Below are positions 4,305-62,798 of a stretch of DNA of 64,000 nucleotides, one piece after another. The notes under the pieces are model-generated. The model did no database searches and was not told the origin of the DNA. It saw only the letters and a list, made by a program, of their open reading frames with translations. Made by a program: the position numbers and the translations under genes. Numbering within the stretch: position 1 is the first letter of the stretch; every line of letters begins with the position of its first letter. Origin of the DNA: Psococerastis gibbosa (lineage: Eukaryota > Arthropoda > Insecta > Psocodea > Psocidae); NCBI GenBank assembly GCA_963971405.1, contig OZ020491.1, positions 13,820,855 through 13,884,854 on the forward strand. The letters run 5' to 3'.

Positions 4305-4718
4305 GGTGGCTATTCCACTTGTCAATATTCCGTCATTTGTGCATCAATAATTGATGAGATTTTTTTTACTCTATATCATTGTCCATTTTAACTTCCGCAT
4401 GTTAAAATTGATCAACGATCATAGAGTAAAATCACGCTTTGCAAACAATAACATACTAAAATTAAACAATGGTGTCGTCTGGAGATGATAAGTAATTTAA
4501 ATTAATTTCTTGAGAACGAACGAATTATTTCGTAATTTAGATGATAAAATTTCTTGTAGATTATAAAATAAAAAGAAACTTACAAAATTGGGAACAAAAA
4601 TGGTCAATTATTGAAGATAAGTGGAATGAGGTGTCAAAATATAAATGCAACATTGATGATATTTCCGTTATTGACATCATCAAAATTGAAGAAAAACTGA
4701 CAAGTGGAATAGTCGCCC
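4305..4718. mobile_element. Hairpin (H) element with ghost MADF-like reading frame
   Basis: Left end GGTGGCTATTCCACTTGTCA, right end TGACAAGTGGAATAGTCGCC. The ends are inverted repeats and match the copies at 35472 and 35916. The interior keeps a block also seen at 18290, 24915 and 60958: TTAAAATTGATCAACGATCA, then AAACAATGG. Here it is longest, with a 4541-4720 stretch reading ...DYKIKRNLQNWEQKW..., similar in feel to a MADF domain. Stops at the start mean it is not functional. Most internal sequence retained of the family. Confidence 0.6.
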
Positions 4719-4758
4719 TAATACCTATAACCTACCAATTGATATACTATATAACTGC

Positions 4759-4853
4759 AAAGGCTTTCACGGCCGGAGTCGAATGAGGAACCAGTAGAAT
4801 CCGGGCTGATGGGACTTCGACCACGGCCCATCAGCCCGGATTCTACTGGTTCC
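4759..4853. repeat. Penelope-like element terminal piece in head-to-head palindrome
   Basis: AAAGGCTTTCACGGCCGGAG, shared with 28010 and 31529, leads into two perfect 27-bp arms at 4787-4813 and 4827-4853 around a 13-nt spacer. The arms contain GTAGAATCCGGGCTGATGGG and its complement. The sequence is the end of the Penelope-like element found at 28010. Confidence 0.7.
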
Positions 4854-4860
4854 TCAATTG

Positions 4861-5289
4861 ATATACTGTAGATAAACATTTACAAGCTAGATAATTATGC
4901 CTCATGAAGGGTAAATTAAGTAGCCGATTGATTTTCAACCCAGGGAGAAAATTGTAGGCAGATAAATGAACTAGTCTAGCGCCCATTTTGTGCGTCAGCG
5001 ATGACGTAAGAAAGGACTGTAACTTGAACCGAATGAACTGTCGGAAGAATGCAATATATTTAAGTGTAATTCAGGAAAAGTGGTTTGGGTAAGACATGTG
5101 TTTAGTCTATTGTTTATCTGGGTGGTTCTCACTGTTTATCACCACTCTCTCATGAGTTCTCTCTAATCTAGCTGGATAATACTAATTGGATCTCTTTGAT
5201 TTGAAACTTTCTCGAGCAGATATTTCACTTTGGGGGAGGACCTCCCGGGCTTTACTCACGGTTGTAGATTTGTTTTTGATAAGAAGGAA
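4861..5289. other. No recognisable feature
   Basis: Non-coding, no repeat that I can match elsewhere in the window. Confidence 0.4.
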
Positions 5290-6215
5290 GAAACAAAGGA
5301 AATTGTCTTTATTGCTTTCCAATTTATACGTAGCATAAGGAAAGCTTTGTGACGGTCGAAATTTTCGATTTCGAGATTTCAACGGATTTACACGTTTTGA
5401 GGTCCCAGGAACCCAAAAAAGTGATTTTTACGAAATGTCTGTCTGTCGCTCTGTCTGTATGTCTGTCTGTATGTCTGTCTATTCGTCGATTTCCAGGCAA
5501 ACTACTCTGTCGATTTTGATGAAATTCGGCATTTAGGTTCACAAAAATCATACCTCCGGACCATTTTTTATTATTTTGGGCTAACTCAATTTGGGGGGGG
5601 TTTTATTCTCAAAAAACTGATAAAAAACGTCTAAAAAAATTATTTCTCAAAAACGGCTCCAACGATTTCGTTTAAATTCTCATATATTGTAGTCGTTATT
5701 AATGTTGACTTGCCCCTTGATAGTTTGCTTCTGGGGGTAAAAAAATAAAAATAACTAAATTTTCATGAAAAATGACTAAAAAATAATTTATCTGCTAAAC
5801 CTTTCGATCGCTGATTTCTACCTTCAGTCATGCTTTAGGTGTTAAATTGAGTAACGAAACCGGACAGGTTGCTTTCGCAAAAAACATTTTGGTTTTGGTG
5901 AAATTATTTTTTTTGAAAAAATGATAGAAAATTCACGGTCAAATGCATTGCCTGCCCTGCCATTATTACTGTATGGTAATGTGTTGGTCTGACTTATCTA
6001 GAATTTACCACACCTCCAGTGACGTCAGGTAGACAACCCCCCCCCCCCCCGCCCCCAGATATCGAAAATTTAGCCATAGGAAAATTATTTACCACGAAAT
6101 TACTAATTTTCTCTAACTACTAATTGATAAATTGGAAAGCATGTTCGAGTAAACTCGGACCGGTTCTTTTCCATATGGGCGAATTTGGGCCTTTAGCGGG
6201 CCACTCTTAAAATAA
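5290..6215 (+). repeat. T repeat split by R1 copy b
   Basis: AAGGAAGAAAC...ATTGTCTTTATT at 5290-5312 and CCATATGGGCGAATTTGGGC from 6169 are the two halves of a short repeat. The uninterrupted version is at 37326 and 21397. The R1 element lies exactly between them, so this locus defines R1's ends. Confidence 0.75.
5313..6168 (+). repeat. R1 element, near-complete copy b
   Basis: Same layout as at 716: GCTTTCCAATTTATACG start, (GTCT)n tract at 5435-5485, C-run near 6040, ATTGGAAAGCATGTTCGAG and a CGGACCGGTTC end. It sits between the halves of the T repeat. Confidence 0.9.
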
Positions 6216-6285
6216 ACTCGTAATGCAATGTTAAAAATAATAACTATTTTCTAGCTATCTAACTAATTATTACTGCTGCCCTATT

Positions 6286-8149: not shown

Positions 8150-8289
8150 GGCGCTTATTCCACCAACGTCAATAGTGATAGTAAATGTAGTATTGACGTG
8201 GTAGCAGACATTAAAGACAGTCTAAAAATGTCTGCTACTACGTCAATACTACATTTACTATCACTATTGACGTTGGTGGAATATGCGCC
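8150..8289. mobile_element. Hairpin (H) element, 140 bp
   Basis: Two 63-bp arms, 8150-8212 and 8227-8289, are nearly perfect inverse copies around a 14-nt loop. Ends are GGCGCTTATTCCACC and GGTGGAATATGCGCC. The arm carries the family core GACGTGGTAGCAGACAT at 8195-8211. The right flank is TTA, the left flank ATA. Confidence 0.9.
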
Positions 8290-8687: not shown

Positions 8688-9720
8688 CCCATTGGTCCCT
8701 TGTCCATGTGTCAACGTCCCTATGGCTTTCGGGCATTATTGCTTTCCAATTTATACGTAGTATAATGAAAGCTTTGTGACGGTCGAAGTTTTCGATTCCG
8801 AGATTTCAACGGATTTACACGTTTTAAGGTCCCAGGAACCCAAAAAAGTGTTTTTTACGAAATGTCTGTCTGTCGTTCTGTCTGTCTGTGCGTCGATTTC
8901 CGGGCAAACTACTCGGTCGATTTTGATGAAATTCGGCATTTAGGTTCACAAAAATCATACCTCCGGACCATTTTATTTTTATTTTGGGCTAACTCAATTT
9001 GGGGGGCTTATATTCTCAAAAAACCCCAAAAAACGTCTAAAAAAAATTATTTCCCCAAAATGGCTCCAACGATTTCTTTTAAATTCACATACATGTATAT
9101 TGTAGTTGTTATTAATGTTGATAAAATGCGGGGGGTCGCTTGCCCCTTGATAGTTTGCTTCTGGGGTTAAAGAAATAAAAATAACTATATTTTCATTAAA
9201 AATGACTAAAAAATATTTTTTTTGCGAAACCTTTCCATCGATGATTTCTACTTTCAGGTATGTTTTAGATGTTATATTGAGTAGCGAAAACGGCTTTCCA
9301 AAAAAACTATTTGATTTTGTGCAAAAAAAATGTTTTTGAAAAAATGATAAAAAAATCAAATCAAATGCATTGCGTGCCCTGCCAGTATTGCTGTGTTAAT
9401 GTGTTGGTCTGACCCATCTAGAATTTATCTCACCTCCAGTGACGTCAGGTGGACAACCCCCCCCCCCCTCCCCCGAGATATCGGAAATTTAACGATAGGA
9501 AAATTATTTACCATGAAATTACTCATTTTCTCTATCTACTTATTTTGATAAATTGGAAAGTATGTTCGAGTAAACTCGGACCGGTTCTTTATATTGTTTC
9601 CGTATGAATTTTTGGCCATTGGCAATATGGTAGATGTCCTCGATGTCAACCTACACCGGCTACAAGTGATAATACAAGTTGAGACAAGCTCAGCAGAAGA
9701 TGCAGAAGGAGAAAGCATGA
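8688..9720 (+). repeat. U repeat split by R1 copy c
   Basis: TTGGTCCCTTGTCCATG...GGGCATTATT (8690-8740) and TTTCCGTATGAATTTTTGG (9597 on) flank R1. The unbroken counterpart is at 10089-10260, so this is a second empty-site pair for R1. Diverged U copies are at 15655 and 39780. Confidence 0.6.
8741..9590 (+). repeat. R1 element, near-complete copy c
   Basis: Same terminal and internal blocks as copies a and b. The (GTCT)n tract is short (8862-8890). C-run at 9458-9475. Confidence 0.9.
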
Positions 9721-16001: not shown

Positions 16002-16085
16002 GGACATGTAGAATAGTGGTACAGACTCCTATTTTCACCTGAAAGGTTGTTGGTTCGAGTCCCACACGTCAATATTTATTTATTT
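16002..16085 (+). repeat. SINE-1 head fragment
   Basis: A box TAGAATAGTGG and B box GGTTCGAGTCC are intact; the body is missing and the unit runs straight into (ATTT)n, as if internally deleted. Confidence 0.75.
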
Positions 16086-16456: not shown

Positions 16457-17749
16457 CGAGGGCGGATTGAAAAGTCCGTAGAAAATCCGAGGGATGGCGC
16501 CACTCGTCAAGGCCAAATATCACCTCATTTAGCGAACTGTCTGATCGGAACTCAGTCAAAGTTTGAGCGTTATTCGATCATAATTGACATCACAGTGATT
16601 TTTTAAGTTCGGGGAGTTGCAGGTAATTGTGAGCAATGGATGAAAAAGAATTTCGAGTCGTTATTAAGCATTATTTTTTAAAGAAGAAGAATGTGCAAGA
16701 AACGAAAAAAAGCCTTGATAAACATTATGGGGAGTCTGCTCCGTCAATTAAAACTGTTTATAAGTGGTTCTCAAATTTTCGTACTGGGCATATGGGCACA
16801 GAAGACGCCGAACGCTCTGGGCGGCCTTCTGACGTCACTACGGCAGAAACTGTAAAAAAAATCAGTGATTTAGTGCTAGGAGAGCGTCGAATGAAACTGC
16901 GAGAGGTAGCTGACATTGTGGGGATCTCGAGCGAAAGGGTTCACAATATATTACATAATCACCTTAAAATGAGAAAATTGTCAGCAAGATGGGTGCCGCG
17001 ACTGCTGACAGCTGAACAAAAACACCGTCGCGCCGAGCTTTGTGCAGAGAATTTAAAGCTGTTTCAACGAGCCCCCAAAGAATTTCTTCGTCGTTTTATA
17101 ACGGTAGATGAAACTTGGGTTCATTTTTACACCCCAGAAACGAAGCAGCAGTCTAAGCAGTGGGTAGCCAGTGGAGAACGTGCCCCGAAGAAGGCAAAGA
17201 CCGTCCAGTCAGCAGGCAAGGTCATGGCCACCATTTTTTGGGACGCAAGAGGTGTCATTTTCGTAGATTATTTAGAAAAAGGAAAAACGATTACCGGCAC
17301 CTACTACGCATCCCTTCTTGACCGCCTTAAAGCAGAAATTCAAACTGTGCGCCCCCATTTAGCAAAAAAGAAAATTCTTTTTCATCATGACAATGCGCCG
17401 GCTCATACCGCAGTGTTGGTGACCTCTAAAATTCAGGAATTAAAGTTCGAACTATTGCGCCACCCTCCTTATTCCCCTGACCTGGCACCGTCCGATTATT
17501 TTCTGTTTCCCAATATGAAGAAATGGCTTGGAGGGAAAAGATTTGGCTCAAATGAGGAAGTAATGCGCGAAACAACCGAATATTTTGCAGGGCTCACGGA
17601 AGATTATTTTCTGGGTGGAATAAAAAAACTTGAGGGAAGATGGACCACCTGCATTGAGCGACAAGGGGACTATGTTGAAAAGTAGTAGTAAGCATTGTTA
17701 ATACATTGTACCAGTTTAGAGTTTCTACGGACTTTTCAATCCACCCTCG
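16457..17749 (+). mobile_element. Complete mariner transposon
   Basis: 1293 bp, bounded by TA at 16455-16456 and 17750-17751. Inverted ends of about 28 bp start CGAGGGCGGATTGAAAAGTC on the left and CGAGGGTGGATTGAAAAGTC on the complement of the right, with one difference in that stretch. Length, TA duplication and terminal repeats are all typical of the mariner family. The ORF inside is unbroken. Confidence 0.97.
16636..17685 (+). CDS. Mariner transposase, intact
   Basis: 349 residues, the usual length for mariner transposases (about 345-350). It excises and integrates its own element by cut-and-paste at TA sites in the nucleus. The N-terminal half has the paired helix-turn-helix region that binds the terminal repeats, with the linker SGRP at 61-64. 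WVPRLLT at 119-125 matches the conserved WVPHEL motif with two changes. The catalytic D,D34D triad is intact: D158 (TVDETW), D252 (HHDNAPAH) and D287 (YSPDLAPSDYF). The start lies 179 bp inside the left end, a normal position. Its sequence resembles the irritans group (SAGKVMA, DYLEKGKTI). There is no stop or frameshift, which is rare for an old copy and suggests recent arrival, possibly by horizontal transfer. Confidence 0.96.
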   Translation: MDEKEFRVVIKHYFLKKKNVQETKKSLDKHYGESAPSIKTVYKWFSNFRTGHMGTEDAERSGRPSDVTTAETVKKISDLVLGERRMKLREVADIVGISSERVHNILHNHLKMRKLSARWVPRLLTAEQKHRRAELCAENLKLFQRAPKEFLRRFITVDETWVHFYTPETKQQSKQWVASGERAPKKAKTVQSAGKVMATIFWDARGVIFVDYLEKGKTITGTYYASLLDRLKAEIQTVRPHLAKKKILFHHDNAPAHTAVLVTSKIQELKFELLRHPPYSPDLAPSDYFLFPNMKKWLGGKRFGSNEEVMRETTEYFAGLTEDYFLGGIKKLEGRWTTCIERQGDYVEK

Positions 17750-18128: not shown

Positions 18129-18448
18129 GGCGCCGTTTCCACCGACCTCTAAGTGCAAAATACACATACGGTGACGTGGTGGCAGATATCATTAATAAAG
18201 GCGGGGTTTCCACCGACCTCTCATTGCAGATTGCAAATGACATTGACGGAAATTTTTGTTTTACTCTCTGCCATAGTTAAAATTGATCAATGATCATACA
18301 GTAAAATCACAAACAAACTAAAATTAAAAAATGGCGTCATGGGTTATGTTAAGTACAAACATTTTAATAGATTTCTATAAAAAGAAAAATTCAAATTTCC
18401 GTCAATGTCATGTGCATTCTGCAATGAGAGGTCGGTGGAAACCGCGCC
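18129..18448. mobile_element. Hairpin (H) elements: half copy plus complete copy
   Basis: 18129-18199 is only a left half (GGCGCCGTTTCCACC ... GACGTGGTGGCAGAT). The complete element 18200-18448 follows, with 56-bp arms (GGCGGGGTTTCCACC / GGTGGAAACCGCGCC). Its centre keeps AAAAAATGGCGTCATGGG, reading M-A-S-W and on to ILIDFYKK, shared with 24837 and 60893. Confidence 0.85.
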
Positions 18449-19414: not shown

Positions 19415-19550
19415 GGCGGGGTTTCCACATACGTCAATGGTCAATGGTAAATCTGGTATTTTAGCAGACATTAAAGACATACTAAAAATGTCTGCTACCA
19501 CGTCAAAACCATATTTACCATTGACCATTGACGTATGTGGAAACCCCACC
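19415..19550. mobile_element. Hairpin (H) element with TAA target duplication
   Basis: 136 bp, ends GGCGGGGTTTCCACAT / ATGTGGAAACCCCACC, directly flanked by TAA on both sides (19412-19414, 19551-19553). The right arm contains TGTCTGCTACCACGTC, the complement of the family core. Confidence 0.9.
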
Positions 19551-19713
19551 TAAAATAATGTTGCTAATCAAAGTTTCGTATTTTATGCATAGGCAAAAGA
19601 AAAATTGTGATTTTTTTTTTAATACTGACATTCTACGTAATTCATAGATAATCAACTCATACAAAAATTATAAATTAATTTAAATCCTATGTTTAATTTG
19701 AATGTTGACGTGG

Positions 19714-22292: not shown

Positions 22293-22333
<41 letters not shown>

Positions 22334-22530
22334 AGTCTCGAGGCATGATTTTTTTGAACTTACATGCCAAATTTCATCAAAATCGACTGAGTAGTTTCCC
22401 CGGAAATCGATGAATAGATAGACAGACAGACAGAGAGACCTCAAAATGTGTAAATCCGTCGAAATCTCGGAGTCGAAAATTTTGACCATCACGAAGCTTT
22501 CCTTACTACGTATAAATTGGAAAGCAATAA
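22293..22530 (-). repeat. R1 5' fragment with long poly-A
   Basis: A ~39-bp A-run at 22293-22331 is followed by the minus-strand R1 head (CTCGAGGCATGATTTTTTTG ... AAATTGGAAAGC). The A-run corresponds to the T-run inside R1. Confidence 0.8.
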
Positions 22531-24836: not shown

Positions 24837-25196
24837 GGCGCCCATTCCACATACGTACATCGTCAATGAAAATTATGAAATTGAAGGACATTTCAATTTT
24901 ACTCAATGCCATTGTTAAAATTGATCAATTGATCATAGGGTAAAATATTAGAAGTTCTTTGGTAAAATCACAAACAAACAAACTAAAATTAAAAAATGGC
25001 GTCATGGGATATGACAAGTACAACTATTTTAATTGATTTCTTTAAAAAAACGCATTTCTATGTAAAAATTATAATAAGGATTAAATAATAAGGCGACGAA
25101 GAAGGAAGAAGGGGAATGGCCCCCATCAATGAGAAATTGAAATGTCCTTCAATTTCATAATTTTCATTGACGTTGTACGTATGTGGAATACCCGCC
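24837..25196. mobile_element. Hairpin (H) element with TTA target duplication
   Basis: 360 bp, flanked by TTA on both sides (24834-24836, 25197-25199). Arms of ~70 bp: GGCGCCCATTCCACATACGT / ACGTATGTGGAATACCCGCC. The centre keeps ATGGCGTCATGGGATATGAC, reading MASWDMTSTTILIDFFKK, the best-preserved ghost N-terminus in the family. Confidence 0.9.
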
Positions 25197-35354: not shown

Positions 35355-38300
35355 GTCATGACGTCATTGACGTGATGACTAGAGTTCTATGTAGAAGAGA
35401 TGGGGCATTCGTTTCCCGCCAAAAATATATTTATTTAATTTCTGCTTAATTGGCCATGTCTCCTACGATAAGGCAGCTATTCCACTTGACAATAATCCGT
35501 CATTTGTGTTTTAATAATTGATGAGATATTTTTTTTTTTAAACAAAAATCTCATCAATTATTGATGCACAAATGACGGAATATTGACAAGTGGAATAGCC
35601 GATTAAGCTATTGAAAAAACGTGGCAGGTTAAAAAAAAATGGCGCACTCGTATGTCCCATCTCCCCTCTATAGATTTCAAGTGAGGACCTCTGAATGTTG
35701 AGTCCATAGAGCACCAAATATTGTCCCGGTAAAGGTGTTTCAGTCCAGTTTCACGAGCGAATCGCAGCACACGTTGTAGGCCCGGCGCCAGGAATCTCGG
35801 TCGGCTCTATGCGAGAGCTGGACATTCTTCTATGACATTCTATGGGTTCATAATATGTCAATATGATGAAATGATAAGATAATGAAAATTTGAGAGTCCT
35901 GGTGGCCTCGTGCATGACAATTGCTGTTTGTGCATCAAAAATTGATGAGATGTTTGTTTTAAGGAGACTATTATGTAGGTACTTAACTTATCAATTATAA
36001 ATTAAGTTGTAATATGGTAGAGACTTATTTTTGATGCATAAGTGACGGAATATTGACAAGTGGCCTTAACAAAGCATTATTTCATTGTGGATCTCATTAC
36101 AGAAAGAAAATGCTGCGTCAACAGGGAAAGCTGGATTCTGGGAAGAGTTTGAAAGCTTGCAGCAGCAAGAATGCCGGCACTTGTTTTCCAGAAAAGAAGG
36201 CACCAAACCTGAGAATAGGAACAAAAATAGATATAAAAATATTCTGCCTTGTAAGTACATAATTTATTACTTTTGTATCTTTATCCAGTAGTTTTTGTGT
36301 GTCGTATTTGTTAACGCATCGTGAATGGAATAAGATTATAAACCACGGATAAAAGTATTTAACTTATCTGCTATTGTTACGCATTGATTCATTTGTTAAA
36401 AAGAACTGGTCCGAGTTTACTCGAACATGCTTTCCAATTTATCGATTAGTAGAGAGAGAAAATTATTATTTTCATGGTAAATAATTTTTTTCCTATGGTT
36501 ACATTTCGGATATCACGGGGGGGGGGGGTCGTCCAATAGGTCAGGCCTACACATTACCAGACAGCAATAATAATAATAAATAAATAAAATAATAAATAAA
36601 TAAATAAAAATTTTTTTTGCACAAAACCCAATAGTTTTTTGGAAACCAAACTATCCGGTTTCATTACTCAATTTAACACCTAAAACATGCTTGAAGTTAG
36701 AAATCATCGATAGAAAGGTTTCGCAGAAAAATTATTTTTTAGTCATTTTTCATTAAAATTTAGTCATTTTTATTTTTTTACCCCCAGAAGCAAACTATCA
36801 AGGGGCAAGCAACCCCCCGCATTTTATTAACATTAACAACAACTATAATATATGTGAATTTAAAAGAAATCGTTGGAGCAGTTTTTGAGAAATAATTTTT
36901 TTAGACGTTTTTTTGAAGTTTTTTGAAAATAAAACCCCCCAAATTGAGTTAGCCCGAAATAAAAAAAATGGTCCCGAGGTATGATTTTTGTGAACCTACA
37001 TGCCAAATTTCATCAAAATCGACCGAGTAGTTTGCCCGGAAATCGACGCACAGACAGACATTTCGTAAAAACCACTTTTTTGGGTTCCTGGGACCTCAAA
37101 ACGTGTAAATCCGTTGAAATCTCGGAATCAAAAATTTCGACCGTCACAGAGCTTTCCTTATACTACGTATAAATTGGAAAGCAATAAGAGTGCAAAATGC
37201 TCAGAAATTCAAATTAATAAATTATTGGAATTATTGGAAAGTTCGTTTCACTGATGATACCTTATGTAAAATTACCAGTTCAAATTTTGGATTTTTTTAA
37301 ATGCTAATTTCGCTTATTATTTTTAAGAAAGAAAATTGTCTTTATTTTCCATATTGGCGAATTTTGGGCCTTTCGGCCCACTCTTGCAATTAACCCATTT
37401 TATTGCAAGTTATACCATTAAATGAATAAGGCTTAAGGTATATTATTTGCCACTTGTATTTAAAAGTATTATGCGTATCAAGGGTTATAAATAATTTGTC
37501 TAAATCAAAGGGAGATAAAGTTTTAAAAAAAACTCGCCAAAAATATAGCCGAAGATCAATTTATTTATTATAATTTCCGCTCATTTTGCACTCTTTTTTT
37601 ATCAAATGAATCAATGCGTAACAATAGCTGATAAGTTAAATGCTTTTATCCTTGTGACGTGACACCTTGGGCTTATTCAGAATAAGTTAATGGTGGACAC
37701 CGTCCTTACACCTTTTGGATTACTTCTTTTGGTGCTTACTACGGTCGTATTTATACTATGTGTGCTTAATTTGTATTTGTATTACAGTTGATCACACCCG
37801 AGTTAAGTTGAAAAACGTGGATCCAGAAGTGCCGGGGGCGGAATACGTAAACGCAAACTACATTCGACAGGAGATTGAAAATGGCACGCCCAGCTCAAAC
37901 CTAAAGTGCTACATCGCGACGCAGGGCTGTCTGCCTAGCACACGCAACGACCTGTGGGCGATGATCTGGCAGGAGGATACAAGGGTTATTGTCATGACAA
38001 CAAAACAGATCGAGCGTGGAAAGGTAGGTGTTACAGGGCTAACTGGAGCACCCAGTAGGTATCACAGGGTGAACTGCAGCACCCAGCAGCTATTATCATT
38101 GAGGCTTATGGAAACATCAACGCTTTGATATCTTAGCAACTGGTGCTGCCATCTACAAAATGACCTCACAAATGAACCTCATTCATACTTATCCATTCAA
38201 CGTGGTTTTGATCGTCCTGCCTTTCTTCTACTCTGGGGAGTAATGTGCAGGGTTCTCCTCGCCGGCATGAGTTACACGCATACCAGCTATCTTATCTTAT

Positions 38301-41300
38301 AATGTTTTCTTAATCTCGGCTACACTGCACTGCCGTGCTAGGGAAAACTTAATTGAGAAAACATTTCCATAAAATTTCCTCCTTCTTTTGAATGTCTTCT
38401 GCTACGAGAGCTAAGCTAAGGAATTGGGTGGTGTCTGTTCACCAGTTGTCTCTCTTTTTTACTTAATCGTGTAGGCACGCAGTGTATCGTATGCATTATG
38501 TAGCCATATTGGTCTATTGGGCCTCCTTCGGAGTATTCATATTACACTTATTATTACAATGAATTCTGTGCTTTTCTTGCACTTTCTTAGTTAAGGCATG
38601 CTCTACTAAGTCCTGCTTAATTTGTCAACTTCCCTATGGTTCGAGTATTCCTACCATAGTAGAGCAACTCAATAACAGCCTCACTCAATTACCAAATCCC
38701 ATGTGACCTGCAGATGCGACTAGTCTGATAGGTTACTGGCAATATGTACACTGTCATTGGGGCCATGGAACATAGCAGAACAATATGCAGTGAATTGTAA
38801 TTATTTGTTTGTTGTGCAGAACAAATGCGCGCAATATTGGCCAGAGCTGAATGAGACTGAAACCTATGGGCCCATTCAAGTGGAGCATGTGAATGAATTG
38901 AGTACAAATGATTACGACCTGAGGGAGTTCTCCGTGTCGAACGAGGCCAACCCGACTGAGAAGAGAATTGTCTACCACTACCACTTCCAGGTAATTCAAT
39001 ATCAATATTCAGGTATGTTTTAAGTGCTAAATAGAGTAACAACACCAAGGTTGCTTCCCCTGAAAACAGTTTTGGTAATGTAGAAAACACTATTTTTTGA
39101 AAAAAATTATTAATAGTCCGTGCCGAAATACAATTGAATAGCATACCTTGCTATTATTATTATTATGTAGCATTATATTGGACTGTAGATTTAAGTCTAT
39201 GCAATTGTCTTACCAGACGAGGCAGCCGAAATTTAGCACTAGGAAAATTATTTACCAAAGAATCGTGGTGCAGTATTTTGGTACTTATACTATTAAAATA
39301 ACTAGGAAAACATGTACAGTTTTACTCGCACTGATTCTCTGTATAGGGTTGTAATGACTAGGACCTCAGGTGGCCATTCTCACCCTAAACGACTGATTGA
39401 AGGCCTTGAAAAATTGTTAATCGAGAACCGCACTTAATAAATTTTGAGGCTATGTTTTAAAGTGTATGCTAAAGCGTACCATAGTTAGAACTTCATAACA
39501 TAAATTATGTATTTTGTTCAGGCTTGGCCCGACCACGGAGTGCCTGCAGACCCCGGCTGTGTCCTAAACTTCCTCCACGACGTCAACATGAGGCAAGAGT
39601 CCATTCCAAACGCCGGCCCCGTCCTCGTCCACTGTAGTGCTGGTATCGGACGTACGGGAACCTTCATTGTAATTGATATGATTCTCGACATGATTAAACG
39701 TCATGGTATGTACACTCGGCCCCTTTGGAAATTATCTGCTAACTTAAGCTATGCTGGACTCATTCACGAAGTCGGTTAAGCTGGGCTCACACTTTTTACA
39801 ATGTGTCCATAGTAAGCATGTCTCAGCTTGTCCAATGTGGCTTTTAGCTGGTGTGGGTTGACATCGAGGACGTGTGCTAGTTTGTCAATGGCTAAAATTC
39901 ATGTGGAAACAGTACTAAAAATGTCAGAAAAATCAATGAGATCGTTGCACGGAGGTCTTGTGTCGAACTGTTCGGGGACATTGTCAATAAGAGGCAAGTA
40001 GACTCGTGGCTTCCTTGCAAGATTATGTTACCTTATTTTACTCGTAATAGATCAAATTAAGGTCGTCGTAGTTCGTGATATTTAATTTCAGTAAACGAGC
40101 AATTAATAAATGTTGTTGTCAAAGAGTGTGTGAACTTGAGTAATACAAGGAGTCTTTCCTTTCTGTTAAGAAATTATTGATAAACTTGAAATTGATTGTA
40201 TTGCAGGCTTGGATTGTGAAATTGATATTCAGAGGACAATTCAAATGGTACGGTCCCAGAGGTCAGGGATGGTCCAAACAGAGGCTCAGTACAAATTTGT
40301 GTACCTGGCTGTGCAGCATTATATTAATACACTTGCCCAAAGGCGGCAAGCTGAACAGGTACGTCTAGACGTTTTATTTGCCCACGGTTCGATAAAACCT
40401 ATGTACGAGGTAGGTAGGTATGATAACTATTCTATGGGTGTTGCGTTCCAGTGTGATTGATTCCTCAACTTCCTGAAGTTTTACCACGAAGCGCCAAGAT
40501 AATTGTTGCGACATAATGCAAGTTGCGCAGTTGCTGAATAAGGAAGATTTTAGTAAACTGATCAAATACTGTGTTGGGTTTGGTTCGATCAGCCGGTGAC
40601 CCGACTGGATTCTTTTGGTAAAAATGTATCAAAATTGCTGAGTGACATTTCTTCTGTCACGCCAAGAATTAAACTTTCAATATATACTTAAGAATAAGGG
40701 CGTCGGTGCACCAATTTGACCTTAAGAGTGTACAGCCCTTAGGAAAGTGGCAGCCCGAAATTTAATACTTTTTATTTAATTAACTAAGCATGTTATTAAA
40801 TATTTGGCTCATCAAAGTTGTAGAAGACTACTTCATGCATCATAATAATAAGGTATTTTTAGTTTTCGACATTTTAGTTTTTTTTATACAATCCGATTAT
40901 GCGTGAAAAGTTATTGTTTATAAAATATTTGCATGTTTATGAAAAAACTACAATTTCGAAAATTAAAATATCTTATAAAATGATGCATGAAGTAGTCTTC
41001 TACAACTTTGATGAGCTAAATATTTAATAACATGCTTAGTTAATTAAATAAAAAATAAAAAGTATTAAATTTGGGGCAGCCAATTTCCTACACTCTTAAG
41101 AGGGCATGGAATTTAGAAAATCAGCACGCTAAAACTGGAAATGTTTGTCTTTTAATTATTTTAGTACGCAATTTATTAAAGATTCAAGTTGTAGAACATG
41201 AAAGATACTGGGCACTAAACTTCACATTTCATTTCAGGTTTCAATTAAAAACGTGTTATTATTGAATGAAATAGTCCTCAAGATCGTGAATAGACTAAAT

Positions 41301-42751: not shown

Positions 42752-42967
42752 GGCGGCTATTCCACCGATGTCGTTTTTCAATGTGAATGTGCATGACGTG
42801 GTAGCAGACATCATTAATAAGTCTACCATATTTTAAGGAGACTGTAATGTAGATACTTAACTTATCTATTATAAATTAAGTTATAATATGGTAGAGACTT
42901 ATTAATGATGTCTGCTACCACGTCATGCACATGCACAATGAAAAACGACGTCGGTGGAATAGCCGCC
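42752..42967. mobile_element. Hairpin (H) element, 216 bp
   Basis: Arms of ~85 bp with few mismatches (GGCGGCTATTCCACCGATGT / ACGTCGGTGGAATAGCCGCC). Core GACGTGGTAGCAGACAT at 42795-42811. The loop holds the TTAAGGAGACT..TATAATATGGTA block. Flanks TAA and TTA. Confidence 0.92.
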
Positions 42968-43638: not shown

Positions 43639-43802
43639 GGCGGCTATTCCACCGACGTCGTTTTTCATTGTGCATTGCATCAGACATCATTAATAAGTCT
43701 CTGCCATATTTTAAAGGAGACTATTATGTAGACTTATTAATGATGCCTGCTACCACGTCATGCACATGCACAATGGAAAACGACGCCGGTGGAATAGCCG
43801 CC
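43639..43802. mobile_element. Hairpin (H) element with TTA target duplication
   Basis: 164 bp; TTA at 43636-43638 and 43803-43805. Ends GGCGGCTATTCCACCGACGT / ACGCCGGTGGAATAGCCGCC. Close relative of 42752, with a partly deleted left arm. Confidence 0.9.
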
Positions 43803-43828: not shown

Positions 43829-44034
43829 TATAAGTCCACGCCGCAAAATGAGAAAGTATGAACATGGAATGTTTTGATCCTGTGCAACACTAAAAATATT
43901 CTTTGCACAATTTTTGTTATGCCTTGCATCCAATGCAAGAAGGTAACACAAAATGGTGCAAAGAATATTTTTAGTGTTGCACAGGATCAAAACATTCCAT
44001 GTCCATACTTTTCCCAACTTGCGTGGACTATATA
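43829..44034. mobile_element. S-family hairpin element
   Basis: Inverted arms of ~75 bp: TATAAGTCCACGCCGC...GGAATGTTTTGATCCTGTGC and GCACAGGATCAAAACATTCC...GCGTGGACTATA. TA flanks on both sides. Single copy in the window. Not related to the H family ends. Confidence 0.8.
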
Positions 44035-49000: not shown

Positions 49001-52000
49001 TAAAAACGTGTAAATCCGATCGATCATTTCGACCGTCACAAAGCTTTCCTTATAGCCTACTACACTAACGTATAAAAAGGGAAGCAAAACCTAACATAGA
49101 AGAACAGCCGCACTCGTTATAAAGCAAGCACTGAAAAACCTTCATGGAAGGATTTAGTCTATAATCAAAACTCAGCCGCCTTCAAGATTATTTCCGTTTG
49201 ATTTGACCTACATCGCAGGAAGTGAGGAGAGAGGTAGGCGGGTCTGCTGTAAAAGTATAAGACGCCATCAGTCAACATTAAGTCAGTCACGAACGCCCAT
49301 AAAGTAAGTTAACACAAAAGAAAAATTACGTGCAGTAAGCAACTGCCCTTCTTTCATCCGCTGAAGAAAAGAATTAATTGAAAGATCAAAGTAGTACGAT
49401 ATTTTCCATGGAATGTGTGACGACCTACTAGTGATGGAGTCGGGTGGGTTCGATTTTTTGGAGGGAACAAAGGATTTCTGGAGCTACCCGCCACTCCTCC
49501 TATGCCCAGCTATTTGGAAAGGTGGCCTCAGGATTCAAAAAAATCTTTTTGGCGGGCTCGAGGGTCTCATTTCATCTATATAGAACTACTAATAATACAT
49601 CAAAAGAGAAAAAAAATCAATCCTCAAATGGATGAAAATCTAACCTATGTAGAGCCAAGACATTGCATCCGCACATTTAACCGATAGGTACGGCACAGTC
49701 TTTCTGTGCCAAGGTCCATACCTCGCCAAGATTATTGCTTTCCTTTTAAGGAAGAGCCCGTGAATTCATGCCCGGATAAACGAATACTTACTTTAAATGC
49801 AGGGGGTTGCTTCCAGGGCAATGACAATGGAAGCACTTTACCGACAAAATGTACACCTTTCTTTATTAATAACATAAAGGAAGACTCAATGCGATGATTA
49901 CTACAGGAACAGCTGTCTCCCAACTACCAATCACTTTAATAGTAAAGTACATACAACAAGATGCTCTGAATAGAGAAAACTATTTATGATATAGTTTACC
50001 ACCCAAAAACTGCCGGAACATGACTTACTTTCCATGTACGACATTCCAGTAGGCCTACCTTATAAACGGTGGGGTAAGGGAAGGGTAGCAAGTTACGCAA
50101 GGCTGTCTATAGGGGCCCCCTTTGACCGGGGGCCCCTGTAGACAGCAAAAAAAAAAATGTAATTGTTTGGGGATTTTTTTGAAAAAATATTCAAAAATTA
50201 AAGAAAAAACTAATTTAAGAAAAGAAAGAAAGTTTAAAAACAAAAACTAATTTTACGCCAGGAATTAAGTAGTTGCAAAAAATTGTAGGGGGCCCCACTG
50301 CTCTGTCTTGCGTAAGGGCCCCCCCAAAATTTGTTATGCCACAGCTTATAAATTACTAGCAACTGTTGAAATTTACCATCTTTTTTTAATTTATTTATTT
50401 TTACTAAAACTTACAATTAATTCATTGCCATTTTGGCGGACTTTAATTACTAAAAAAACTTACTTTTTAATAATATTCACTTAACTTAACTTTTTTTTTA
50501 AACCAAGAATAAGGAATAAATGTATATTTCGCAAGCTATAAAAACATGTAACCATGTAAACCTTATTTTTCGATTGTTATCACAATTTTAAAATTTTCCA
50601 GGCGTTCTATATTCCCTAGTAAATGCCGCACCCAACTAAAATTAACTAATTTTATTGGAGAAGGATGATTATTTTGTTAATGGCAAGAGCTTTTAAATCG
50701 GGCGATGAGCAACGCCCTATCCAACCACTGGCGATGACCCATTTCTCGGGCCAGAGTGTGATGACCCCTGTGACGTCATCAATTCCACACGTGCGCCTAT
50801 GCTCAACAGGGTTCCAAAAAAGGGCGGTTTATTTGCATGTTGTAATCAGTTATACAGCGCAAGCCCGATCAACAGATTTTCCTTGGAAAAGTGGAGATGT
50901 TGCCGCCTTGGAATCTACAACTAAGCCGTTACAAAATGACACGTGATAAAATTTCACCTTATCAGCATATATCATGTTCAATTATTCAGTGCGGAATACG
51001 CTCTCTAGTAGGCCTACTGTTGGTTTATTTATAAAAACTAAAAGTACATCAACATAACAGCAATATTTCGCCCTAACACCACTAATCATTAGGCTACGTT
51101 TAATTGCTAAAAAAAAAAGTTAACACGCTACACATTTTGATTGTGCAGCAGATAAAATAGATAAATATTGACTTTTTTGTTCGATTACTAAGCCAACCTA
51201 GCGGAGTTAGGGCTATAAGCCCTCGCTTAGACTCAACTAGGAAGGCCCGGGACCGCCTGCTTTACATGTCCTCCGAAGCATGGCCAGAAAATGTAGCAGA
51301 TATATAAATATTTAATATATAAATCCACGAAAACAGCTTGACAGCGCATACAAACTACTTGCACAAGCCCTAGTGCAAACCGCAAAGCAGTGAAAGTGTG
51401 GGTAATTTTGGTTTTAATCCCATATTTTCCACTGTATTTAGAGTAACTGACACAGTTTTGAAATTTTGTGAAAATATTGGCTGACGGTGGATAGAAGAAA
51501 TGAGTGCATGGTTTAATATTCTGGCCACTGGCCAAGAATGCGTCCTGACATCATCGCCACATTTTACGGGGGAGCCACTCACTCTCTGGAGCCATAATAA
51601 AGTCCCTCCTCCAGTTTCTGAAAACTAGCCTAGTCATTGACCATAGTAAAGGCATATAAACATAATAGTCTCCTTAGTAACTTTGTAAAACTTGCTGTCA
51701 CTCATTGTTAAAATTAACTTCGCATAGTTTTACGAATAAAATAAAATTAAAAATTTGTTATATCTGTTTTCAATCGCACTTGACGATGTCGTGAGCCGAA
51801 ACCGGTTGTGAATTTTTAATTTAATTTTATTCGTAAAACTATACGAAGTTAATTTTAACAATGAGTTAGTAAAGGCAGTTAGCCTGCCTACCTAGTTAAT
51901 CGATAATCCCACCTTACTATCTTACTTACTTCCTTCCTCCAGTAGTTTCATGTTATTTGCCGTCTAAATACAGCTCAGTGTAAATACTATGATTGATATA

Positions 52001-55082: not shown

Positions 55083-55255
55083 GGACGAGAACTAATATTA
55101 TAATTCCATTTGTGGCAAGGTGGTAGCGTGCTTGTACGGCATACTTGTGCGAGTCTCTACGCACCTTGCGGTCGGAGACATGTCGTAACTAGACACCAGA
55201 ACCTATTGAGTGACTTAGTGAGGCGATTGAAGAGGTTAATCGGGTAAATTCATCA
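55083..55255 (+). repeat. SINE-2, best copy
   Basis: TGGCAAGGTGGTAGCGTGCT (A-box-like), GAGTCTCTACGCACCTTGCG, GGAGACATGTCGTAACTAG and GAGGCGATTGAAGAGGTTAA. Confidence 0.7.
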
Positions 55256-55607
55256 AATTGTTTGTACGCGATTTAACCTTTTTTTTTTTAAGAAAAAAAA
55301 GTATATATACATATTAGCTACCGAATGACCCATTATCCTAGTTAAGTTGCATTACACGTGAAATAAACTGTCGATCGGCGTGAATTTGTTTGTTTACGGC
55401 CGTATGTTATAGGCTACTTAACAGCCCCTTCATTGAATAAGAAGTGTCCTTTACATCATGGGTTAGTTCAGTAATAATTGAACAAACGCAGACGACTACC
55501 AAAGTAACTTTGCTTATCCATCCATCCCCATACTTGCCGCCACAATCATGCTGAGTAGCTGAGTAAGTCAGGACCGCTGGATAGGTAGATTTTTTAAAGG
55601 CAAAAAA

Positions 55608-55760
55608 TTTAATGAATGTATCCGATTGACCTCTTTAGTCGCCTCACTAAGTAACCTACTAGGTATTTGTGTCGAGTTACGACACGTCTCCGTTCGCAAG
55701 GTGTGTAGAGACTCGCACAAGAACAAGCACGCTACCACCTGTCACCAAAGCCGATTAATA
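55608..55760 (-). repeat. SINE-2 copy
   Basis: Reverse of the 55083 copy, only ~350 bp away; starts TTTAATGAATGTATCCGATT. Confidence 0.7.
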
Positions 55761-56144: not shown

Positions 56145-56965
56145 CCTATTTAAACGGTAGCATAAGGAAAGCTCTGTGATGGTACATTTCGATATTTCGC
56201 CGGATTTACCCATTTTGAGATACCACGATCCCAATAAAGTGGTTTTTCGTTTTTACGAAATATCTGCCAGTCCATCCGTCGATTTGTGGACGAACTACTC
56301 GATGGATTTCGATGAAAGTTGGGATGTAGGTACAGAAAAATCATGCATCGGGACAATTTTTTATATTTTGGCGGGGTTTCCACCGACGTCAATAGTGATA
56401 GTAAGGGTGATATTGACGTGGTAGCAGAAATTTTTCGACTGTCTTTAATGTCTGCTACCACGTCAATAACACCATTACAATCACTATTAACGTCTGTGTA
56501 ATCTGCGCCTTAGGGCTAACTCAATTCTTGGGGTTTTATCCTCCAAAAATTCGAAAAATGTTCCAACGATTTCAATTGAACTCACGTATATTGTAGTCCT
56601 CATTAATGTAAACAAACCCCACTAGGCCGCATTCCTCTGCATTGTTTACTTCAGGGGACAATATTCGTTTAATTAAATCAATTTTCATTTTCAATTGCAT
56701 TAAGTAATTTTTCTAGGGACCGTTATATCAATGATCCATAACATCAGATATATTTTAGGTACAAATACAGTAACAAAACCAATCAAGTTCCTTTCCCAAA
56801 CAAAGTTTTGGTTTTGTAGAGAAATATTTTTTTAAGAAATTATTGATAATATATATAATTGATAAGCATAACATGCTACCACCATTGTGTAGTATTATAT
56901 TGAGCGGCTAATTCTAGTCAATGCAACCCTTTTATCGATTAACCCAGTCGATGCAGCCGGAACTT
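56145..56965 (+). repeat. R1 element, old diverged copy with H insertion
   Basis: CATAAGGAAAGCTCTGTGATG, CCGTCGATTTGTGGACGAAC and GGCTAACTCAATTCTTGGGG follow R1 order but are far more diverged than the other copies. An H element interrupts it at 56370. Confidence 0.7.
56370..56509. mobile_element. Hairpin (H) element inside R1
   Basis: 140 bp, GGCGGGGTTTCCACCGACGT / ends ATCTGCGCC; core GACGTGGTAGCAGA at 56415. Right flank TTA, left TTT. Confidence 0.88.
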
Positions 56966-57623: not shown

Positions 57624-57870
57624 TACACTGTAATATTATATGGTATATATAACACCGACATCAAATTAACTTTGGTTGAAGAGGTAACCTCCTCGTTATA
57701 GTCCAGCGGTTAATACGACGCCCCGGTTAGGCGTAGATCGTGGGTTCGAATCCCCAAGCCCAGTTTTTTTCATATGCTCTAATTTCGTTCATAACGGGGA
57801 GGTTACCTCTTCAACCAAACTTAATTTGATTTCGGTGTTATACAGTATATACCATATAATACTACAATGT
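57624..57870. mobile_element. Long inverted repeat with a tRNA-like loop
   Basis: Arms 57624-57700 and 57791-57870 pair over ~75 bp (GAAGAGGTAACCTCC / GGAGGTTACCTCTTC; AACACCGACATCAAATTAA / TTAATTTGATTTCGGTGTT). The loop is a tRNA-like sequence plus a T-run. The 5' acceptor strand of the tRNA is replaced by the arm. Confidence 0.8.
57696..57763 (+). tRNA. tRNA-like sequence, damaged
   Basis: A box TAGTCCAGCGG, anticodon arm ACGCC-CCGGTTA-GGCGT identical to the 58018 copy, B box GGTTCGAATCC, 3' acceptor CAAGCCC and a T7 terminator. One base is lost in the T arm and no 5' acceptor strand pairs. Probably not functional. Confidence 0.5.
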
Positions 57871-58017: not shown

Positions 58018-58090
58018 GGACTTGTGGTCCAGCGGTTAAGACGACGCCCCGGTTAGGCGTAGATTGTGGGTTCGAATCCCGCCAAGCCCA
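58018..58090 (+). tRNA. tRNA-like gene with apparent GGT anticodon
   Basis: Folds as a full 73-nt cloverleaf. Acceptor GGACTTG/CAAGCCC has one A-C mismatch; D stem GTC/GAC; anticodon stem ACGCC/GGCGT; T arm GTGGG-TTCGAAT-CCCGC. Internal promoters TGGTCCAGCGG and GGTTCGAATCC are perfect, and TTTTTT follows at 58092. The loop CCGGTTA would give anticodon GGT (Thr), which eukaryotes do not normally use, and position 33 is C, not U. So this is more likely a tRNA-derived repeat or pseudogene than a working tRNA. It shares ~30 bp of 3' flank with the 57696 copy. Confidence 0.55.
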
Positions 58091-58752: not shown

Positions 58753-60581
58753 TTACTGTAATATTGTGTCCTTTTCTTCTTCAATTTCTTCTTTAATTGT
58801 ACCCCATACAAGCAGTTTTGCATCATCGCAAAGTTCAGTGTTGTCCACAGACTCCTTTACGGTGGCAACATGACACTTGGACTCAACAAATTCCTGTAAT
58901 ATAGTCTCGTTCTCTTCTTCAATTTCTTCTTTAACTGTGTGCCATACAAATAATTTTGTATCCTCGCAAAGTTCAGTGATGTCCACAGACTCCTTTACGG
59001 TGGCAACATGACACTTGGACTCAACAAATTCTTGTAGTATTGTGTTGTTCTCTTCTTCAATTTCTTCCTTAAGTGTACGCCATGCAAGCAATTTCGTATC
59101 ATCGCAAAGTTCAGTGTTCTCCATATAATCCTTTACACCAACAACACGATACTTTGACTCAACTATTTCCTGTAGTAATATGTCTTCTTTAATTGTATCT
59201 GTAATTGGACCAAATGCAGGGACTTTTACATCACATGCAGCAGCAGAACCCACAGCCTTTACAACGTTATTGCGATGCAGCTTCGAGTTAGTATGCACAA
59301 TAAGGGTATATTTTGAAACATAACGTTTCTCACACAAATTGCAAGAGTATGGTCGATTATCGTATGAAAAATGCGCCAAAATGTGGTCCTCTAAATCGTT
59401 TTTACAACAGAATTCTTTAGAACAACGGCCACATTGAAATCTACTGTTTTCACAAATACATCCGTGTAGAGGGTTATTAAGTTGATGCCCGCATTTTTTG
59501 CATCGAGAACCACCGTTTGTTTTGTTTTTAACTTGTACAGTGAAGGCTAGACCCTGCCGATCAGCATCTGGCCGCACTGTTGTGTTTCCGTGTAACTTGG
59601 AATGAGTGTGATAGTGAAGAGCTTGTTTAGAGAGTAAACGTGCTCCACAGAACTTACAGCCGTAGGGCCGTTCATTGTATGGAAAATGGGTGAAAATATG
59701 CCTCCGCAAAATGCATTTTAAGTTGAATTCTTTATAACAGTGGCCACATTGAAATCTGGAATTTGCACATGGAGGGTTTAGTGGATCATCATCATGTTGC
59801 CGGCCACATTTTTTGCAAATGATACCTTTACAAGCTATTTCTTTAACATTTACAGTAGAGACACGGCACTTGGGATCAACAACTTGCTGTAATATGTCGT
59901 TTTCTTCCTTAATTGTGGCACATCCAGTTAGACTCGCATTGCCAGAAGTAGCAGCATTTGCAATTTTTCTACGATGTAATTGTGAAAGTGTGTGCCCGTT
60001 TAGGTTTTGTTTAGAAATATAACGTGTTCCACACAACTTACAGCCGTAGGGTCGGTCACGGTATGGAAAATGCGCCACAACATGACGCCGCAAATGTTCA
60101 ATGTGATAATATTCCTTGTAGCAATAAGCGCATTGACGTCTGCAAGTGCTACAAATGTGTCCGAGCAGAGGGTGAAAATACTGTTTACCACATATTTTAC
60201 AACTACATCCACTGGAAACCGTGCATTTTAAAATATGCCTTTCAATTGCTCTACGCTTATTATCAGTGAAATGTTTTAAACAGAAATAACATTGGAACCC
60301 TCTGTTAATTTTAGTATGATGACTCTTCATGTGACTTCTCAGTTCATACCATTTAATATATCCTTTCCCACAGACTTGGCAGCGGCGCTGAAAAGTGGTA
60401 TCGTTTGTTACTTTTCGTAGATGGCACTGCAGGGAGTAATTACGAACAAACCGTTTGTCGCAGTGGTAGCATGCATAACTCATTTTAGTTTCTTCACTTT
60501 CATGAGTAACTAAATGTGTTCTTAAAGTAGACCGTATCTTGAAGCTCTTCCAACAAATATGGCAACTATGCGGTCGCTTAC
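58753..60581 (-). CDS. Zinc-finger gene, last exon
   Basis: Starts after TTGTTGCAG at 60582-60584, two bases into the Gly codon, and runs 608 codons to TAA at 58753-58755. Finger 3 (YACYHCDKRF) has lost its second His. Confidence 0.93.
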
Positions 60582-62798
60582 CTGCAACAATAATATATTG
60601 TAATCTACATGACGGGGTTACATCCTAGCGCTTGTTAGCCGCATGCGACCTCATTCAGTCGTCTAGCTAGGAATGGAAATTGACATACAAGACTGACAGC
60701 GGTAAAAATTAAAATCTCTAATTGTATGTCAATAGTACTTTACTTTATCCAACGTCCACTCTTGGCGATACCGCCATGTGGTGCCGCGCCTGCCAGTATA
60801 GTGACGATATGTCTTTGTTAAGGTGCCCATTCCATTGACCGGCTAGGGCTATTTCCAAAAATGGTGACGTGGTAGCAGACATTCAAGACTTAGGTGGCGT
60901 TTCCACCGACCTCGCATAGCAGAATTGACGGAAATGTTTATTTTCCTCTATGCCATAGTTAAAATTGATCAATGATCATACAGTAACATCACAAACAAAC
61001 AAACTAAAATTAAAAAATGGCTTCATGGGATATGTTAATTACAAACATTTAAATAGATTTCTATAAAAAGGAAAACAAAAATTTCCGTCAATGTCATTTG
61101 CAATCTGCAATGCGAGGTCGGTGGAAACGCTACCTAAGTCTTCAATGTCTGCTACCACGTCACCGTTTTTGGAAATAGCCCTAGCCGGTCAATGGAATGG
61201 GCGCCTAAGGCTCTGGATCGATTGACAAGTTAGAAGGTGGGTATGTCAATAGTGGTTAAATTGTTATAAATTTTTGCATATGCCGAACATATTTTTTCTG
61301 GGCCCTATTGGGTCTAACATGACAAAACAGTTGAAAGTCGTCTGCTTTGGCGGGGATTCCACCAACGTCAATAGTGATATTAAATGTTTTTTGACGTGGT
61401 AGCAGACAGTTTTAGACTGTCTAAAAATGTCTGCTACCACGTCAAAAAACATTTAATATCACTATTGACGTTGGTGGAATCCTCGCTTTTGGAGTGGGTA
61501 AGTTTTACTACCGTATTTTACAGGTTTAAATAATTCCCTGGGTTATTTATTATGTTGTGTTGGTACTAGGCCTGCTGTAGTGACACTGTTACGCCCCAGG
61601 CCTAACACAAGAGCAGACGCTCTTCTTGGCCTAGGCTCAGGGCTGAGGACAGACGGCAAACCTCTGTTGTGTAAATGTTATATCGGTCGTCACGTATGTC
61701 CTTAGCCATAATGTATAAATCACGAACCTTGGGTTCGAAGAACGAGAGAGTTTGGAGACTATGGATAGAGTAGTTAGAGTCGATAGAGTCTAGTGAGACA
61801 GAACTGATTCACCATGTGAGTTGATAAACGGTGCAAGTAGGAGTAAGCTCCTATGGATGTATGAGTAAGTACGTTATCATGTAGCCCTTACGTAACTAAG
61901 TTGCCCCCCCCCCCAATTCATTATGTTGTCCCTTGTCCCTTAAATACTTAAGTTGTCCCTAAGTTATAATGTGGTATTAATGTTTTGTGTCTTAATATAA
62001 TATAAGGTATTTGGTACCATCCTATTAGCTTATATATATAATTCCCCTCTCATAAGTCCACTCTGAATACTCTAATCTATAGAAGGCCCCAATTAGTGGT
62101 ATTCGGAGTGTGACAGACACGTATCTCTTCTTAAAAACCTTGAAGCAAATAACTCTAAAGAAGTTGAGCTAGATTATGATTATTATTTCTGTAGAGATTT
62201 TTATGCCATCAACTGACTTAGTCATCATTTGGAGGAAGATTATAATCTATATTATGTTGTTCTGTGAATTACTTCAACTAAAGTTTTTGTTTGGTAGGCT
62301 TGATTTATTTATCGTTCCAATTCGAAGAAGGGACTACCCACAATTATATATTATATTATTGTATTGATCCAATTTCAATACAAAGTGTACGCTACGATAA
62401 AATTCTATACCGCAAGGCTTCAGTATGCGGTTTCGCTTTTGGATATACATGTAATTCAATCGCAATACAAATAGTTAGTTAATCAATTCAGGCTAGTTGT
62501 ATCAGTTCGCTATATTAGGTTGTTAGTAAATAGTTAATTCTGGTTTTTAGTAACTTCTGTTCGCAGCCATTTGTCTAAATTTCTTTTATATATTGCTAAA
62601 TGAAAGGTGAGTGGAAATGAGATTAGTAATATAAACTCTTACCGGTATGAATGAACATGTGCAGTTTCAGGCCTTCCTTCTTTTTGTAGCGTTTTCCACA
62701 CAAGGTGCAAGCATACAGCCAGTCCAGTTTACAGTCGTCTACAGATATTTTCGAATCACTTTCATTCTCATGATTTAGAAATAAAGAGCTCTTCGTAC
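58753..62798 (-). CDS. C2H2 zinc-finger protein, C-terminal two exons
   Basis: Exons 62643-62798 and 58753-60581. The junction rebuilds a classic finger linker, H-T-G|K-R-P. Finger 1 (YACTLCGKRY...HMFIH) is in the first exon and at least ten more C2H2-like units are in the second. Three ~77-residue modules follow one another (residues 93-170, 222-298, 327-403 counted from the Met at 60483). Each has a CKxCG pair plus two fingers, with (F)AHFPYxxRPYGCKxCG between them. The C-terminus is three ~47-residue acidic repeats (ILQEFVESKCHVATVKES, KEEIEEE). Probably a nuclear DNA-binding protein; no KRAB, ZAD or BTB domain is visible, but N-terminal exons are outside. The Met at 60483 is internal, not the start. 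Confidence 0.93.
60822..61205. mobile_element. Hairpin (H) element with TAA duplication, host of a nested copy
   Basis: Arms of 69 bp with three mismatches (GGTGCCCATTCCATTGACCG / CGGTCAATGGAATGGGCGCC), core at 60866-60882. TAA flanks 60819-60821 and 61206-61208. In the zinc-finger intron. Confidence 0.93.
60893..61134. mobile_element. Nested hairpin (H) element in the loop of another
   Basis: 242 bp, GGTGGCGTTTCCACCGACCT / AGGTCGGTGGAAACGCTACC. Centre keeps AAAAAATGGCTTCATGGG, but its ghost frame has a stop. Inserted at the centre of the outer hairpin (TTA left, TAA right). Confidence 0.93.
61349..61487. mobile_element. Hairpin (H) element
   Basis: ~139 bp, arms nearly perfect over 62 bp (GGCGGGGATTCCACCAACGT / ACGTTGGTGGAATCCTCGC). 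Core GACGTGGTAGCAGACA at 61393. TTT on both sides. Confidence 0.92.
61587..62115. mobile_element. Solo LTR of a retrotransposon
   Basis: 529 bp beginning TGTTACGCCCC and ending GGAGTGTGACA, flanked by the identical 5-bp duplication GACAC (61582-61586, 62116-62120). TG...CA ends with a 5-bp duplication are diagnostic of LTR elements; the TGTTACG start is common in the Gypsy group. A TATAAATC at ~61711 could be its promoter. No internal coding region, so the element was reduced by LTR-LTR recombination. Lies in the zinc-finger intron. Confidence 0.9.
62643..62798 (-). CDS. Zinc-finger gene, penultimate exon
   Basis: Acceptor TTTTTAG, donor ACCG|GTAAGA. Encodes an acidic lead (LNHENESDSKISVDD) and one perfect finger, CTLCGKRYKKKEGLKLHMFIH. 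Begins two bases into a codon, so at least one more exon lies upstream. Confidence 0.88.

Follow-up and report, generated by a model that had tools for sequence, protein, structure and literature searches.

Elements and their ends

The window analyzed here is a 64,000-nucleotide stretch of the Psococerastis gibbosa genome (assembly GCA_963971405.1, contig OZ020491.1, positions 13,820,855 to 13,884,854 of the forward strand). It carries 13 elements with GGCG-N4-TTCCAC-like tips, counted on both strands, of which 12 are two-ended and span 132-413 bp. Together with one remnant they make up 2,699 bases, or about 4.2% of the window. The two-ended elements are short, non-coding and multi-copy, with paired inverted ends, as is typical of miniature inverted-repeat transposable elements (MITEs). 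They are probably non-autonomous PIF/Harbinger-like MITEs that have two signals at each end and arms that have been re-made. A first-pass annotation had described hairpin MITEs with GG...CC tips, TTCCACC close by and a shared core; that description was confirmed, with corrections to the number and extent of the elements.

Elements are named here by their first position. The shorter ones are almost entirely stem, as originally described. Four of them, 8150 (8150..8289, 140 bp), 19415 (19415..19550, 136 bp), 56370 (56370..56509, 140 bp) and 61349 (61349..61487, 139 bp), plainly form one subfamily. The other hairpins are 35472 (35472..35603, 132 bp, with an eroded right end), 43639 (43639..43802, 164 bp) and 42752 (42752..42967, 216 bp). 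Element 60822 (60822..61205) measures 384 bp including 60893 (60893..61134, 242 bp), which is nested at its tip. The description as nearly all stem does not hold for 60893, 18200 (18200..18448, 249 bp) or 24837 (24837..25196, 360 bp), in which arms of about 55-68 bp flank a longer loop. Element 18200 lies within an interrupted element on the forward strand (18129..18199) that has a left end, and for which no right end was found; the core that lies near 18200 belongs to this separate element. The longest member (4305..4717, 413 bp) had been taken for a long hairpin at 4305, which is in fact one end of an element without a long hairpin, its two ends being alike over about 20-32 bp. What had been listed as an element at 35916 is a remnant without clear ends (~35911..36065, limits approximate), in which 35472-type arm pieces surround a 42752-type interior, a chimeric arrangement. 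A further fragment of 42752-type interior (63459..63540, forward strand, 79.8% identity) has no recognized arms.

The ends can also be summarized as ~GG-Y-R-N4-TTCCA. A degenerate form of the end pattern matched 17 sites on the forward and 15 on the reverse strand, giving 15 inverted pairs less than 600 bp apart, 11 of them true element pairs and four cross-combinations, while each of 30 Markov shuffles yielded 0-1 pairs. The pattern was derived from these same elements, which makes the comparison partly circular, and it missed the eroded right end of 35472. In the 12 two-ended elements, mismatches of one arm with the other are concentrated at the outermost positions, with 18 of 96 sites mismatched in the outer 8 bp versus 32 of 515 further in (Fisher P 0.0003). 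Positions 5-8 differ at 10 of 48 sites versus 40 of 563 elsewhere (P 0.003) and look like an unread spacer. Some of the mismatches at positions 3-4 could reflect CpG decay.

Target sites

The sequence TAA or TTA (TWA) forms 18 of the 25 flanks, versus a background of 5.6% (P ~1e-17, assuming independent flanks). By position, T, W and A occur in 10, 13 and 11 of the 13 left flanks and in 11, 12 and 11 of the 12 right flanks. Identical 3-bp flanks were observed for six of the 12 two-ended elements, namely TAA for 19415, 35472 and 60822, TTA for 24837 and 43639, and TTT for 61349; the exact TTA/TTA or TAA/TAA flanks noted earlier for 19415, 24837, 43639 and 60822 are all correct. TWA is present on both sides of seven elements, and in five of these the two flanks are identical. 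Since TWA-rich flanks give 3.0 identical pairs by permutation, the six pairs observed are modestly significant when taken alone (P 0.034). The 3-bp TWA target of PIF/Harbinger elements is thus found for the set as a whole, not for each element.

An exact flank duplication of any length from 4 to 8 bp was found in none of the 12 elements; imperfect duplications were outside this test. The transposons of the piggyBac and Kolobok groups duplicate TTAA (4 bp), and hAT elements duplicate 8 bp. The absence of any exact 4-8 bp match speaks against duplicators of both kinds.

Element 56370 sits in a dispersed repeat, and four other copies of this repeat in the window span the site without an insertion, providing paralogous empty sites. 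Alignment to them supports the GG..CC boundary plus about 3 extra bp. The repeat, of unknown kind, occurs at 864-1009, 5477-5616, 8877-9032, 22320-22426, 36909-37091 and ~56220-56600, and the copy at 22320-22426 ends at the 56370 junction.

Several features of the flanks weigh against a 3-bp TWA duplication. The two flanks are unequal in six of the 12 elements: 4305 (GAA/CTA), 8150 (ATA/TTA), 18200 (AAA/TTA), 42752 (TAA/TTA), 56370 (TTT/TTA) and 60893 (TTA/TAA). Two of these, 42752 and 60893, are among the seven elements with TWA on both sides and differ in the middle base. The flanks of 61349 are TTT on both sides, and the empty copies of the 56370 site show a T run in place of TWA, which blurs the duplication count. 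The longer flanks of 60893, AAGACTTA and TAAGTCTT, are also compatible with a TA duplication of 2 bp within a perfect palindrome, at its tip. Such observations, like the lack of a visible parent, count in favor of another, perhaps undescribed, DNA-transposon superfamily with a TWA-like target. A 3-bp TWA target nevertheless fits the described PIF/Harbinger elements, and none of the 12 elements has exactly matching flanks of 4-8 bp; a different superfamily is considered rather improbable.

An inner motif at a fixed distance from the end

The core was scored as a 17-mer with up to two mismatches in the 25 arms of the 13 elements. It matched 13 times in the window and never in 20 shuffles, and these matches fall in 13 arms and eight elements. 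The claim that most elements share it therefore stands for eight of 13, the full core being absent from 4305, 18200, 24837, 35472 and 60893. In all 13 core arms its offset from the element end is 43-46 bp (mean 44.2, standard deviation (SD) 0.9): 43 in both arms of 42752, 44 in both arms of 60822 and 61349, 45 in both arms of 8150 and 56370, and 44, with two mismatches, in the interrupted element at 18129. The right-arm core is intact in 19415 and has one mismatch in 43639, whereas the left-arm core is partly deleted in the former and deleted in the latter.

Written as TGACGTGGTAGCAGACAT (up to two mismatches), the inner motif occurs in these eight elements, and a shorter form, TGA(C/A)G, occurs in three more. 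This shorter form begins at 43-46 in 18 of the 25 arms and has just two further occurrences, at other positions, within the first 80 bp. It holds the same place in elements without the full core, as TGACG at position 45 in both arms of 18200 and in the right arm of 60893, and as TGAAG at position 46 in both arms of 24837. Of the seven arms that lack it there, 19415L, 43639L and 60893L (L and R denoting left and right arms) look deleted; in 60893L, which has a deletion, TGACG is found at position 34. The four arms of 4305 and 35472 contain no inner motif at all, which counts against the proposed inner signal. Counting both strands, the window has 13 copies of TGACGTGG, of which 12 fall inside these elements and one, at 19706, outside. 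The sequence resembles a bZIP (XBP1/ATF6) site, a likeness that was left out of the interpretation.

The core could instead have been kept as part of a hairpin RNA, such as a small-RNA precursor, with the complementarity of the arms under selection at the RNA level. Five short hairpins were tested, and all fold much more stably than their shuffles (z -13 to -25), and comparison of the four short core hairpins gave 35 columns changed in step versus 71 changed in one arm, summed over six overlapping pairs. With the nested element removed, the full core also lies 5-9 bp from the element midpoint in nine of 12 core arms, which makes the contrast with anchoring at the end weaker for the full core alone. 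Inverted duplication alone, however, accounts for the pairing, and the core has been lost from one arm in two of the eight core elements. No Rfam match was found in the elements at the gathering threshold. The cores of 42752 and 43639 hold their distance from the end yet lie 48 bp (both arms) and 22 bp (43639R) from the midpoint, bringing the SD of the midpoint distance to 15.6 bp overall. The full core alone separates anchoring at the element end from anchoring at the hairpin tip only through these two elements. For the shorter form the midpoint distance varies from 18 to 130 bp, and in 18200, 24837 and 60893 it is 72 bp or more. The fixed offset from the end, which extends to these longer-loop elements, fits a signal in the DNA of the end better than one in a hairpin RNA. 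An RNA function is accordingly regarded as very unlikely, and the motif about 44 bp in is best read as an end-linked DNA feature. Of the two roles suggested for the core in the first-pass annotation, transposase-binding site or hairpin-RNA segment, the binding site is the one favored.

Arms, interiors and chimeras

Over positions 15-43 (29 sites, ungapped), 17-29 sites are the same in both arms of an element, and 17 of 24 arms match no other arm better than their own partner. Left arms were compared by ungapped matching against shuffles for eight elements (28 pairs, P uncorrected). Those of 18200 and 60893, and those of 4305 and 35472, are clearly alike. The left arms of 4305, 18200 and 24837 match one another at 9-11 sites over positions 15-43, the same as shuffled sequence, and the left arm of 60822 has no significant likeness to the other seven compared. 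By contrast, when the interiors of 4305, 18200 and 24837 are aligned (27-36 gap columns), 78-90% of the ungapped columns match; the 4305 interior is akin to that of 60893 as well.

One apparent case of a re-made arm is 35472. Its two arms resemble the left end of 4305 (at 98% over 60 bp and 90% over 59 bp) more than the right end (80% over 35 bp). Over positions 15-43 the left arm of 4305 has all 29 sites in common with 35472R and 17 with its own partner. Judging from these matches, 35472 seems to be the left end of the longer, non-palindromic 4305 in doubled form. In the chimeric remnant near 35916, the interior is of the 42752 type in 73 of 81 columns. Arms seem to have been re-made as inverted duplicates and exchanged between copies, by analogy with what is reported for Galileo.

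Some of the comparisons run counter to this reading. For seven arms (4305L, 18200L, 35472R, 42752R, 43639L, 43639R and 60893R), some arm from a different copy is a better match than their own partner. The arms are also not all unrelated, with weak similarity between 42752 and 8150 (15 sites, P 0.006), 42752 and 60893 (P 0.005), 24837 and 8150 (P 0.010), 18200 and 42752 (P 0.011), and 24837 and 42752 (P 0.020). In a gapped comparison over positions 15-60, which includes the motif, the arms of 18200 and 24837 match at 27 of 44 columns with four gap columns, exceeding few-gap controls.

Similarity of this kind would be expected if the core were merely inherited, a functionless mark of common arm descent. 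The weak likeness of 42752 to 8150 and the single subfamily formed by 8150, 19415, 56370 and 61349 are consistent with that explanation. Element 60822, on the other hand, shares the core with 8150 and 42752 while its positions 15-43 match theirs at shuffle level (P 0.41 and 0.98), and in 18200 and 24837 the shorter motif form is found equally far from the end. Simple inheritance is on these grounds judged unlikely, and retention as an end signal is preferred. All of these statistics come from a single 64-kb window in which copies related by descent were counted as independent, which likewise counts against the interpretation.

Superfamily and parent element

Taken together, the 3-bp TWA target and the lack of any exact 4-8 bp match favor PIF/Harbinger, whose terminal inverted repeats often begin with GG; the elements in the window have short terminal inverted repeats that start in the same way. 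PIF/Harbinger is the best assignment, and quite a likely one, short of demonstrated membership. The earlier proposal of PIF/Harbinger MITEs is upheld as regards MITE nature and TWA target, and its superfamily component stays unproven. No autonomous parent was found among the paired ends within the window, and the interior pieces tested contained no DDE transposase or significant Pfam match, both of which argue against the assignment. The Pfam scan covered 10 of the 18 window open reading frames of at least 110 amino acids.

ATG-led interior frames of 39, 30 and 11 codons are present in 18200, 24837 and 60893, respectively, and the three corresponding peptides gave no Pfam match. In a piece of 4305, a SANT-like match fell short of the cut-off (E 0.074), as did an unrelated one at 0.078; no MADF/Myb match in the pieces tested was significant. 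That the interiors of 18200, 24837 and 60893 represent the gene start of a Myb/MADF-type protein is only a guess.

The end-plus-core pattern and an interior 20-mer each had no match in viral contigs. The sole bacterial or archaeal match to the end-plus-core pattern, in a Paenibacillus alvei contig, was attributed to chance, with no second arm in the 200 bases around it. A literature survey of titles and the starts of abstracts found no obvious description of this element family (most subscription papers and the repeat databases were outside its scope), and a text search with one end and with the core in full, complemented and shortened form returned nothing.

Other features of the window

In its gene-like content the window has a eukaryotic, animal-like look. 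An open mariner-type transposase frame of 350 codons lies at 16633-17685 on the forward strand (Pfam Transposase_1, E 1.1e-26, and HTH_48). A C2H2 zinc-finger frame spans 58753-60624, and a tyrosine phosphatase exon-like stretch spans 37691-38128, with best Protein Data Bank (PDB) matches to SHP-1/PTPN6, followed closely by LAR and PTPN11. Additional long inverted repeats, whose ends differ from those above, occur at 2931-3317, 40766-41057, 43853-44011, 51700-51866, 55144-55721 and 57633-57857, and are perhaps further MITE families; sequence similar to the 2931 and 40766 types (82-85%) flanks 43639 on the left. A tRNA-Thr gene (GGT anticodon) was identified by ARAGORN and Rfam at 58018-58090 on the forward strand. 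A tRNA B-box-like stretch is present in six copies (up to four mismatches), at 16044, 20778 and 53756 on the forward and at 78, 2777 and 52483 on the reverse strand, perhaps a tRNA-derived short interspersed element family. The reverse-strand frame at 28174-28779 had no Pfam match; a stretch of it looks, by eye, like a GIY-YIG endonuclease, possibly from a Penelope-like element.

Proposed mechanism and comparison with known systems

The elements would be mobilized in trans by a two-protein PIF/Harbinger system encoded elsewhere. The outer signal (~GG-Y-R-N4-TTCCA), at the tip, would be the cleavage site on which the transposase acts, and the inner signal, starting 43-46 bp in, would be the putative site of a DNA-binding protein of the Myb/SANT/MADF kind. 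The DNA between the two signals would be free to vary. New subfamilies may arise in two ways: an inverted copy of one end may replace the opposite end, or recombination between copies may swap arms. The expected outcome is near-perfect hairpins whose arms differ greatly between subfamilies. More tentatively, it is possible that the tip and the signal at +44 are all that an element must keep, with repeated re-palindromization resetting the rest of both arms.

If this is true, hairpin MITEs arise repeatedly from single ends and share a mobilizing protein and almost no other sequence, and homology-based repeat finders would class such elements as unrelated. The 4305/35472 pair is a concrete case of a hairpin MITE apparently born from a single transposon end. 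A motif at +44 that binds the mobilizing protein would provide a handle for finding the parent and for grouping MITEs with little common arm sequence. Otherwise, this is an ordinary set of non-autonomous transposons.

In being short and non-coding, with inverted ends and a 3-bp TWA target, the elements resemble Tourist-like PIF/Harbinger MITEs such as mPing. Work on mPing describes a 3-bp target site duplication, usually TAA, at a TAA/TTA target, a need for two proteins and usually precise excision (PMC2836001). Unlike mPing, many of the elements in the window form long hairpins, and subfamilies with differing arms have in common an inner motif anchored at the end. A subterminal motif as a Myb-like binding site, here putative, has a parallel in zebrafish Harbinger3_DR, whose Myb-like protein recognizes a 9-bp subterminal motif (PMC9710019). 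The motif in the window is 5-18 bp long and lies at 43-46 bp. Against such a parallel, a fish MADF protein bound its own promoter containing the terminal inverted repeat (TIR) by chromatin immunoprecipitation, and no specific motif was detected at that site (PMC11893794). The proposed re-making of arms by recombination and recruitment resembles Drosophila Galileo, in which chimeric copies combine the TIR pair of one subfamily with an interior taken from another, and TIRs are extended by recruiting internal sequence (PMC3573991). Galileo differs in belonging to the P superfamily, in its 7-bp duplications and in its much longer TIRs (PMC3573991).

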